From: Alphaproteobacteria bacterium CG11_big_fil_rev_8_21_14_0_20_39_49
GTDB taxonomy: Bacteria > Pseudomonadota > Alphaproteobacteria > Rickettsiales > UBA6187
Direction: 5' to 3'
Length of the DNA stretch: 64,000 bases
NCBI GenBank assembly: GCA_002787635.1
Contig: PCXK01000017.1
Coordinates: 1 to 64,000, forward strand
The translations under genes were made by a program, and so were the position numbers. The notes under the pieces were generated by a model. The model had not been told where the DNA came from, did no database searches, and worked only from the letters and a program-made list of their open reading frames with translations. Shown piece after piece: positions 14,604 through 46,045 of the stretch (positions are counted from its first letter, which is position 1; each line of letters opens with the position of its first letter).

Positions 14604-14707
14604 ATACTTTATTTTACCTTAAAACACGCTTAATCACAATATATGTAAAGCTTATATTGTATCAAATCTTTATTAACGGATTGTTAACTACTTGTTCGTT
14701 GGGCTAT

Positions 14708-14855
14708 GGAGTGTTTACTAAATATATATTTTTGTCATACTGAATTTATTTCAGTATCTTTTTTGTTTCAAAGTAGATGCTGAAACAAGTTCAGCATGGC
14801 ATAAATAAAGTTTTCAGTACAAATTTATAAAAAATATATATTTAGTAAACGCTCC
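14708..14855. repeat. Nested palindromic spacer element 1
   Basis: This accounts for most of the 340-base gene-free stretch at 14604-14943. The outer arms 14708-14733 and 14830-14855 are inverted repeats of 26 bp with a single mismatch (core GTTTACTAAATATATATTTT). Inside are two small palindromes: ATACTGAA-loop-TTCAGTAT (14737-14757) and ATGCTGAA-ACAAG-TTCAGCAT (14778-14798). No transposase is coded. Similar inner palindromes recur at elements 2-4 with other outer arms. The rest of the gap is AT-rich with no gene seen. Confidence 0.85.
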
Positions 14856-14943
14856 CTTGCCATAAATGCAAATTTCATGTCGCAAAAAGCCCGAAAACGT
14901 TATATTACATCTTTATGTTATTAATTCCATAAGATTATAAAAA

Positions 14944-27450: not shown

Positions 27451-27459
27451 ATTAATAAG

Positions 27460-27594
27460 GAATTGTACGTTTAATGGTTGAGTCGTTAGAATTAGTTTTT
27501 TGTCATGCTGAATTTATTTCAGCATCTCATTTTACCTAGAAAAGACCCTGAAACAAGTTCATCGGTGACAAATCAACAATTGAACGTACAATTC
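27460..27594. repeat. Nested palindromic spacer element 2
   Basis: The outer arms 27460-27481 and 27573-27594 are inverted repeats with 20 of 22 matching bases (core GAATTGTACGTT). The inside holds GTCATGCTGAATTTATTTCAGCATC, a palindrome nearly identical to the one in element 1, and a degenerate second copy, CTGAAACAAGTTCAT. The outer arms do not resemble those of elements 1 or 3. It fills the hisS-prfA spacer. Confidence 0.82.
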
Positions 27595-27654
27595 AGAATA
27601 AAATAAGACACCCAAAAAGGTGTTCAGGGTGAAAAAAATCGGTAATATAAGAAT

Positions 27655-43663: not shown

Positions 43664-43879
43664 AGGGATTGTTCAATAAAAATAGATTTTGTATAAATTG
43701 TGCTATAGTAAATTCTAAATTCATTTACGTCATACCCTGCGTTTTCTTTAGAAAGCTATAGGGTGATTCTGGTGATATTACCCTATAATTTGCTTCGCAA
43801 ATTCGGGTAATGACGTTTCCTTTATAAGATGCTGAAACAAGTTCGGCATAACAAAAACTATTTTTATTGAACACTCCCT
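43664..43879. repeat. Nested palindromic spacer element 3 (composite)
   Basis: This occupies most of the 306-base gene-free stretch at 43653-43958. The outer arms 43664-43685 and 43858-43879 match at 21 of 22 bases in inverted orientation (core TGTTCAATAAAAATAG). Inside is a family B copy (43728-43815) followed by one half of the family A palindrome pair (AGATGCTGAAACAAGTTCGGC). No coding sequence is seen in the stretch. Confidence 0.85.
43728..43815. repeat. Palindromic spacer repeat, family B copy 2
   Basis: Bounded by CGTCAT and ATGACG, with GAAAGCTATAGGGTGAT in the left half and a 35-base stretch (43777-43811) identical to copy 1. It lies within element 3. Confidence 0.85.
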
Positions 43880-45160: not shown

Positions 45161-45253
45161 ACATGTGCTAATTTATTTCAGCATCTCTAACGTGATAAAG
45201 AAGATACTGAAATAAATTCAGTATAACAAAAACTATGTTTATTGAACACTGCC
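45161..45253. repeat. Palindromic spacer element 4 (one outer arm missing)
   Basis: The core has the GCTAATTTATTTCAGCATC half-palindrome and ATACTGAA-ATAAA-TTCAGTAT (45204-45224). The right end, AACTATGTTTATTGAACACT, matches the right arm of element 3, but no left arm is present; the element abuts the alkaline phosphatase stop codon, as if truncated. Confidence 0.7.
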
Positions 45254-45573: not shown

Positions 45574-45667
45574 TCCTATCAATACATCACTTACATTATA
45601 TTTATAATTAACATTTTAATTTATGCAAATGGTTTTTAATGATTTTTATAATTTATATGTGTAAATG

Positions 45668-45697
45668 TTGCAAAACCTTACAAAACCGTGTTATAAT
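45668..45697 (+). promoter_or_regulatory. Promoter of the tmRNA gene
   Basis: TTGCAA (45668-45673), an 18-base spacer and the consensus TATAAT (45692-45697). The predicted start is near 45704, just ahead of the acceptor piece of the tmRNA. Confidence 0.7.
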
Positions 45698-45704
45698 AAA
45701 GGTG

Positions 45705-46045
45705 TTCTTTTGAACTATGGTAATAAAAGTCGCTTGGAATAGGCGTAACGGACCCGGGGGCGGTACCCGGCGTCTCCACCAAAGTCCACTAAATATAGTG
45801 AATTTTGGCGGGGACGAAATAGGATCGACGTGCGTAATAAAGAAGTAAGATTTTGCCCGGCATGATATCACCGTGAAGAATCAAATAAAGTAAATGCTAC
45901 TTTAACAACAATGAAAGCAGCTAACGATAACGCAAAACGTATCGTTGTTGCTAATGACAACTATGCTCCTGTAGCAATGGCAGCAGCTGCATAACCAGTC
46001 ATTAAGCGGTTTGGGGGACACCGGGCAACAGAAGTCCCCTTTTTT
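45705..46045 (+). ncRNA. ssrA: Two-piece (circularly permuted) tmRNA
   Basis: tmRNA rescues stalled ribosomes and adds a degradation tag. The gene is permuted, as in alphaproteobacteria: the acceptor piece comes first, with T arm CCGGG-GGCGGTA-CCCGG and 3' end GTCTCCACCA (ends 45781); after a 28-base processed loop the coding piece begins GGGGACGAAATAGGATCGACG (45810). GGGGAC pairs with GTCTCC to form the acceptor stem. The loop itself folds (CACTA/TAGTG). The tag frame runs 45917-45991 with TAA at 45992: it starts AANDN, has a second ANDN at residues 12-15 and ends YAPVAMAAAA. A GGGGAC/GTCCCC stem plus six T (46014-46045) closes the gene. The exact 5' end is estimated. Confidence 0.93.
46014..46045 (+). 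terminator. Terminator at the tmRNA 3' end
   Basis: GGGGAC (46014-46019) and GTCCCC (46034-46039) form a 6-bp GC-rich stem with a 14-base loop, followed by six T (46040-46045). It may also be part of the final helix or pseudoknot of the coding piece. Confidence 0.75.

Follow-up and report, generated by a model that had tools for sequence, protein, structure and literature searches.

The intergenic region between hisS and prfA raises the question of how repeats that share their inner palindromes come to be enclosed by different inverted arms. An earlier note had compared three such elements in the window (the whole 64,000-nucleotide stretch of DNA analysed here) and proposed that a core palindrome inserts into, or is copied with, arms peculiar to each locus. 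The element at this site, element 2 (27458 to 27596), is bounded by inverted arms at 27460-27486 and 27568-27594, which confirms for this copy that the two arms of a pair match one another. Within them lie TIRs of an arm class that we designate C, the left one at 27460 to 27480 (forward strand) matching the class-C arm exactly and the right one at 27574 to 27594 (reverse strand) with two mismatches. Two hairpins are enclosed. Hairpin 1 (27501 to 27525, forward strand) consists of the tag TGTC and ATGCTGAA-TTTAT-TTCAGCAT; the inner palindrome TGCTGAATTTATTTCAGCA is found at 27506-27524, and its pattern has two matches in the window against 0.01 expected. Hairpin 2 (27545 to 27570, reverse strand; ACCCTGAAACAAGTTCATCGGT, tag GACA) is partly decayed, with the hairpin at about 27545-27566. 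Folding of the 139-nt element is far stronger than that of shuffled sequences (z -6.0 as DNA, -6.2 as RNA), and no frame in the program-made list of open reading frames falls within it.

Element 1 (14707 to 14855), which is flanked by divergent genes, carries a full pair of hairpins (14737-14757 and 14777-14797) and gives an RNA fold z of -11.4 over 14711-14856. The core is common to all three elements, as the earlier note had it, with the qualification that element 3 (43665 to 43878) has only one hairpin left (43829-43849) and contains another CGTC-tagged repeat. A further repeat was seen at 43729-43817 of element 3 (ACGTCATACCC...GGGTAATGACGT), and similar sequence is present within the class-A copies C7:166346 and C23:45665. 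The arms of the three elements had also been called unrelated. This is correct for element 2, whose arm differs from that of each of the others at 13 of 20 positions, but not for elements 1 and 3, which differ from each other at 5 of 20 against a shuffled mean of 13.6, with none of 10,000 shuffles as close; a third genomic arm joins the two by steps of at most three mismatches. Elements 1 and 3 both belong to class A, element 1 being a variant with arms linked to that class, and element 2 belongs to class C. The window also holds a truncated class-A copy (45167 to 45253) with part of hairpin 1, hairpin 2 at 45204-45224 and an exact right arm at 45233-45249. About 400 bases from it is a permuted two-piece alphaproteobacterial tmRNA gene (45665-46042).

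Throughout the alphaproteobacterial host genome (2.30 Mb in 31 contigs, 99.4% complete) the arms around core copies fall into three classes and a variant. The class-A tip is nGGAGTGTTCAATAAACATAG, that of class B is CGGAATGTCCCATTAATTGGTTTT and that of class C is CGGAATTGTACGTTTAATGGTTG; variant D, which has inner arm sequence in common with A, has the tip GGCATTGCTAACTAAACATAG. The class-A arm has 126 genome matches against 7 for its reversed control, the class-B arm 34 against 1, and the class-C arm 40 against none at up to three mismatches. In 124 stretches totalling 373,667 bases there are 72 same-class arm pairs (40 A-like, 16 B, 14 C and 2 D), with modal arm-to-arm lengths of about 142 bp (A), 133 bp (B) and 135 bp (C); 13 of the 14 class-C pairs span 135-137 bp between arm ends. 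At least one pair, of class B at C7:163849, has 5+5 mismatches and no core, and probably arose by chance. Aligned copies show one layout per class, with the core at the same place in nearly all those of full length. Several class-C copies (C7:627589, C15:18664, C15:30688, C26:135 and C28:208687) have a common outer context (TTTTACTAAATTTTTTTCATAGGATGACAG), which is probably a further repeat holding class C. At G000:C28:208616-208896 a complete class-C element lies within a stretch flanked by class-A arms.

Among the 90 units that hold an exact core copy, a sample not selected by its arms, loose thresholds gave 48 with arms of class A/D, B or C at both flanks, 24 with such an arm at a single flank, 14 with none and 4 with arms of mixed class; strict thresholds gave 37, 29, 23 and 1 for the same units. 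A larger set of 147 units came partly from arm-sequence searches, and proportions are therefore quoted for the 90. The background of arm calls was 87 in 2000 window draws, where draws skipped for lying near units are still counted in the 2000. No other inverted arms were found at the 23 units that lacked a known arm and had enough flank for testing, the best matches being 11-14 of 18 compared with 10-17 in 150 mismatched flanks; for locus-unique arms or an extra arm class, nothing rose above the control. The earlier note had set its idea of locus-specific arms against a genome-wide set of one or two conserved TIR classes. With three classes and a variant the result comes close to that outcome, and the arms are not specific to their loci.

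Target duplications accompany all three classes. Exact 8-bp duplications flank 12 of 37 class-A, 4 of 15 class-B and 5 of 14 class-C elements, against 0.4%, 0.9% and 2.5% of mismatched flanks, and duplications of at least 7/8 flank 22, 8 and 12 (control 7.6%, 18% and 20.5%), each score being the best across all offsets in 16-nt flanks, with elements of more than seven arm mismatches excluded. At one fixed offset per class fall 13 (A), 8 (B) and 7 (C) of the duplications of at least 7/8. The elements are also short (below about 300 bp), too short for a transposase gene, and have TIRs common to many copies, all as in MITEs. The target duplications are evident at the level of the class; that of element 2 itself is unclear, being weak (5/8) at the class register and at its best (7/8) out of register. 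A match of the ends to an autonomous transposon is close for classes C and B and partial for class A.

These matches come from full-size transposons in other genomes. For class C, a 1956-bp element in a genome of the same family (G002) has ends that are identical at 22 of 22 positions, with one mismatch to the arm consensus, an 8/8 target duplication and a 294-aa IS1595 transposase (E 1.7e-63). The left arm of element 2 (27460 to 27480) has one mismatch against both ends of this element. For class B, an 1863-bp element on a viral-collection contig (L390) starts with 20 bases of class-B arm and encodes an IS1595 transposase (E 9.4e-67) that is 73% identical to the G002 protein; this element has no 8-bp duplication at its own ends. 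Another class-B element, in a Nitrosomonas MAG, has a right end starting CGGAATGTCCCATTAATTGATTG and an exact 8-bp duplication. Class-A-type ends (GGGAGTGTTCATTAATTATAG) bound a 3578-bp element in the relative G005, with the duplication GTAGAGTT (8/8) and two overlapping frames that encode an IS1 transposase (E 5.8e-24 and 5.8e-17), each half of the NCBIfam IS1 matches scoring under the whole-protein cut-off, as expected of halves. The G005 ends fit class A less closely than the full-size relatives fit classes B and C. In G029, another relative, there are two places where class-A-type ends adjoin IS1 sequence. In contrast to these IS1595 and IS1 elements, those of the window carry no transposase gene, and the agreement of ends with IS1 is partial.

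IS1595 transposases were found in 33 of 131 genomes, with no match in the host genome (99.4% complete, 31 contigs), so the IS1595 partner of its class-B and class-C MITEs must be lost or elsewhere. No IS1 was found in the 16% of the host genome examined, and the exact class-A pattern returned no stretch from genome or viral collections, from which records near the host's own may be omitted. Other candidate partners gained no support. IS256 (PF00872) has no match in the host genome; the four host matches to DDE_Tnp_1 (PF01609) have flanks without a transposon-length inverted pair of arm sequences; and the genome has one Y1-type, RAYT-like gene (L181), with no core noticed beside it as judged by open frames and the core listing.

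The inner palindromes themselves are a head-to-head pair of CGTC/TGTC-tagged REPs, with the tag TGTC, an 8-bp stem and the 5-nt loop CTTGT or TTTAT. The core CTGAAACAAGTTCAG has 258 genome-wide matches at up to two mismatches, against 4 for a control read backwards, and the portions of the genome read hold about 150 copies of the hairpin core, mostly double. The 198 tagged hairpins in these stretches, selected for GTC ahead of an 8-bp stem and 5-nt loop, carry the tags TGTC (186), CGTC (8) and AGTC (4), and the loops CTTGT in 107 and TTTAT in 79. All eight stem positions are paired in 186 of the 198 despite variation in the outer three bases (ATG/CAT, ATA/TAT, ACC/GGT, AAC/GTT and ATT/AAT), the pairing count being free of selection at these three positions only. 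For hairpins of other genomes stem pairing was a search requirement, and their loop counts lean to CTTGT through having been found by a CTTGT-loop pattern. Among 201 hairpins there are 75 head-to-head pairs, with spacers of mostly 19 nt, and the partners have unlike loops in 53 of the 75 compared with a shuffled mean of 36.7; 76 of the 147 units are tagged LR. This agrees with passages of the 2013 survey of CGTC-tagged REPs (PMC3733652), in which the TGTC tag, an 8-bp stem starting A:T (as in the host), a 5-nt loop and head-to-head pairs with commonly unequal partners are described. Stem and loop here lie within the 8-9 bp and 4-5 nt of those REPs, whereas the 3-nt tail, mostly CCA in those passages, is CTT (73), CTA (54) or CTC (52) among the 198.

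Core and arms are separable modules. As the earlier note had claimed, a conserved core palindrome lies inside differing inverted arms, and the core is also found armless, here and in other genomes. Three hybrids have strict arms that differ left and right, at C7:623795 (B/A), C15:103653 (C/B) and C26:34031 (D/C), and in all three the switch of arm class falls within the core; these strict cases are the only ones that we claim as hybrids among the eight mixed-class units of the 147-unit set. Core types in class B are AAC (9), ACC (4) and other (3; n=16) and in class C ACC (11) and other (3; n=14), one class-B core type being common to class C, and the hairpin spacer is nearly the same in some B and C copies (maximum identity 0.96). 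A single class-A copy, C28:59470, is coreless, with its flanks closed up.

Outside the host, the 26-mer core is patchily spread, being present in 17 of 131 genomes with the host included. Among single copies from relatives with few copies of the core, 15 of the 17 hairpin groups examined show no outer arms (11-14 of 20 matches). Two genomes from other families of the same order (G077 and G239) have class-A-type ends around REP pairs whose stems differ from those of the host (ACCCCGCA; ATCCTGAA), the tag being identical and the loops identical or nearly so. Duplications at such elements are 8/8 in L400 and 7/8 in L392; there was no clear duplication in L277, L278 and L398, and for L279, L280, L393, L396, L397 and L399 the end-finder did not delimit an element. 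A different enclosure is seen in G090, where two copies of another tagged repeat surround the core pair: at least 18 of 20 arm positions match in 10 of the 17 distinct hairpin groups and 12-16 of 20 in the other 7, rows of L205 being duplicates of L190 in this count. Some G090 copies (L190, L223-L234) lie again within arms GTTGTTGCATGGCTC, making three nesting levels. G091 has 121 core matches, many of them listed as tail-to-tail pairs (tags inward), and no outer arms were seen in the one pair examined (L206). REP pairs within larger palindromes are thus common; the host genome combines several transposon ends at once.

We consider it very probable that these elements represent a REP pair nested in MITEs of IS1 and IS1595, and that the pattern stems from this nesting with no new kind of element. 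The outer arms would be the TIRs of gene-less transposons (MITEs), supplied by at least two transposase families, IS1 for class A (and for D by sequence likeness) and IS1595 for B and C. In each MITE family the REP pair would have been acquired at a single, constant position inside the element. The resulting composite would then have been mobilised through its ends, by transposases that we infer to act in trans, and would have produced 8-bp target duplications as it spread. The ends would differ because each must fit its own transposase. The core would remain alike for two reasons: it is a repeat in its own right that occurs in every arm class, and recombination among its many copies may exchange arms, giving rise to the hybrids, and keep the cores alike. 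A wider reading, that CGTC REP pairs spread inside MITEs of different DDE ISs with the core as an exchange point for ends, recurrently or persistently across families, is tentative, and we rate its chances at somewhat below even.

Several alternatives were weighed against nesting in separate MITE families. One ancestral MITE with a REP pair might have had its ends drift into classes after a single nesting event, as could be argued from the tip CGGAAT common to B and C, the 73% identity of their transposases, the nearly identical hairpin spacers of some B and C copies, the inner arm sequence that A and D have in common, and the zinc-ribbon model NF050000 common to IS1 and IS1595 proteins (matched by the IS1 pieces). 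We find this unlikely: IS1 accompanies the A-type ends and IS1595 those of B and C, and these are different transposase families; the sharing of cores between B and C could also come from recombination, class B having two core types. Nor do we favour, to about the same degree, the preferential insertion of REP pairs by machinery of their own into the middle of any palindrome, with MITEs and other REPs as mere targets. The position of the core at the same site in nearly all full-length copies fits one insertion followed by amplification, and the sole REP-type transposase-like gene does not appear to be flanked by the core, judging by open frames and the core listing; on the other side are the G090 core pairs within another tagged repeat, the REP pairs inside palindromes of other bacteria in passages of PMC3733652, and the coreless class-A copy, which suggests entry without target duplication.

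A role as RNA elements kept between genes (terminators, stabilisers or processing sites), in which arms may vary as long as they pair, seems improbable. The RNA folds are strong and the sites intergenic, as between hisS and prfA. The two arms of one class-A copy also share changes beyond chance (46 against 17.7 when shuffled, 0 of 2000 shuffles; for class B 6 against 2.4, 47 of 2000, and for class C 3 against 1.0, 130 of 2000; elements with more than eight arm mismatches excluded), but such shared changes are also expected from sub-families. Moreover, target duplications and full-size transposons account for the arms, many copies are truncated or decayed, and element 1 lies between divergent genes. 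Least probable by far is the capture of, or copying with, locus-specific arms. A common core and the difference in arms between elements 1 and 3 and element 2 would follow from it, but the arms form few genome-wide classes, and units without those arms show no others.

Nested REP/MITE repeats are already known, from Coxiella QMITE2 and from the 2013 survey (Di Nocera 2013, PMC3733652). QMITE2 of Coxiella burnetii is described as a MITE of about 190 bp that has terminal repeats, is flanked by duplications of 7-11 nt and encloses a REP, its truncated copies resembling plain REPs (PMC5896051). It is like the host MITEs in having a REP nested in a MITE, and differs in that the REP is of the GTAG superfamily and one MITE family is described. 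QMITE2 is also treated, along with Rickettsia palindromic elements, in a review of MITEs in prokaryotes from 2024 (PMC10969869). CGTC-tagged REPs apparently have no dedicated transposase, and some of their pairs lie inside larger palindromes, which the relevant passages of PMC3733652 do not tie to IS ends or to several vehicles. A literal search of the literature did not find the core sequence, and in the mostly non-subscription literature we found no published account of a single REP pair shared by MITEs that belong to several IS families. Two features look new: the occurrence of one and the same REP pair in several vehicles, and the presence, in three bacterial families, of class-A-type MITEs with REP pairs inside them. 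The link between CGTC REPs without a transposase of their own and IS1/IS1595 MITEs is the most interesting residue of this analysis. The 2013 survey, in the passages concerned, left the movement of CGTC repeats open (PMC3733652), and the ends traced here give a testable route. The mixed-end hybrids would illustrate an exchange of transposition signals between short repeats, which may offer gene-less elements a simple means of outliving the loss of their transposase.

Two further observations concern the sequences outside the host. The passenger of the IS1-ended G005 element (L391:1246-3690) is an internally repetitive protein of 814 aa. Finally, class-B arms that lead into the REP tag occur in the viral-collection contigs L387 and L388, whose flanks resemble the host sequence at C7:515152 and so possibly belong to the same prophage region.
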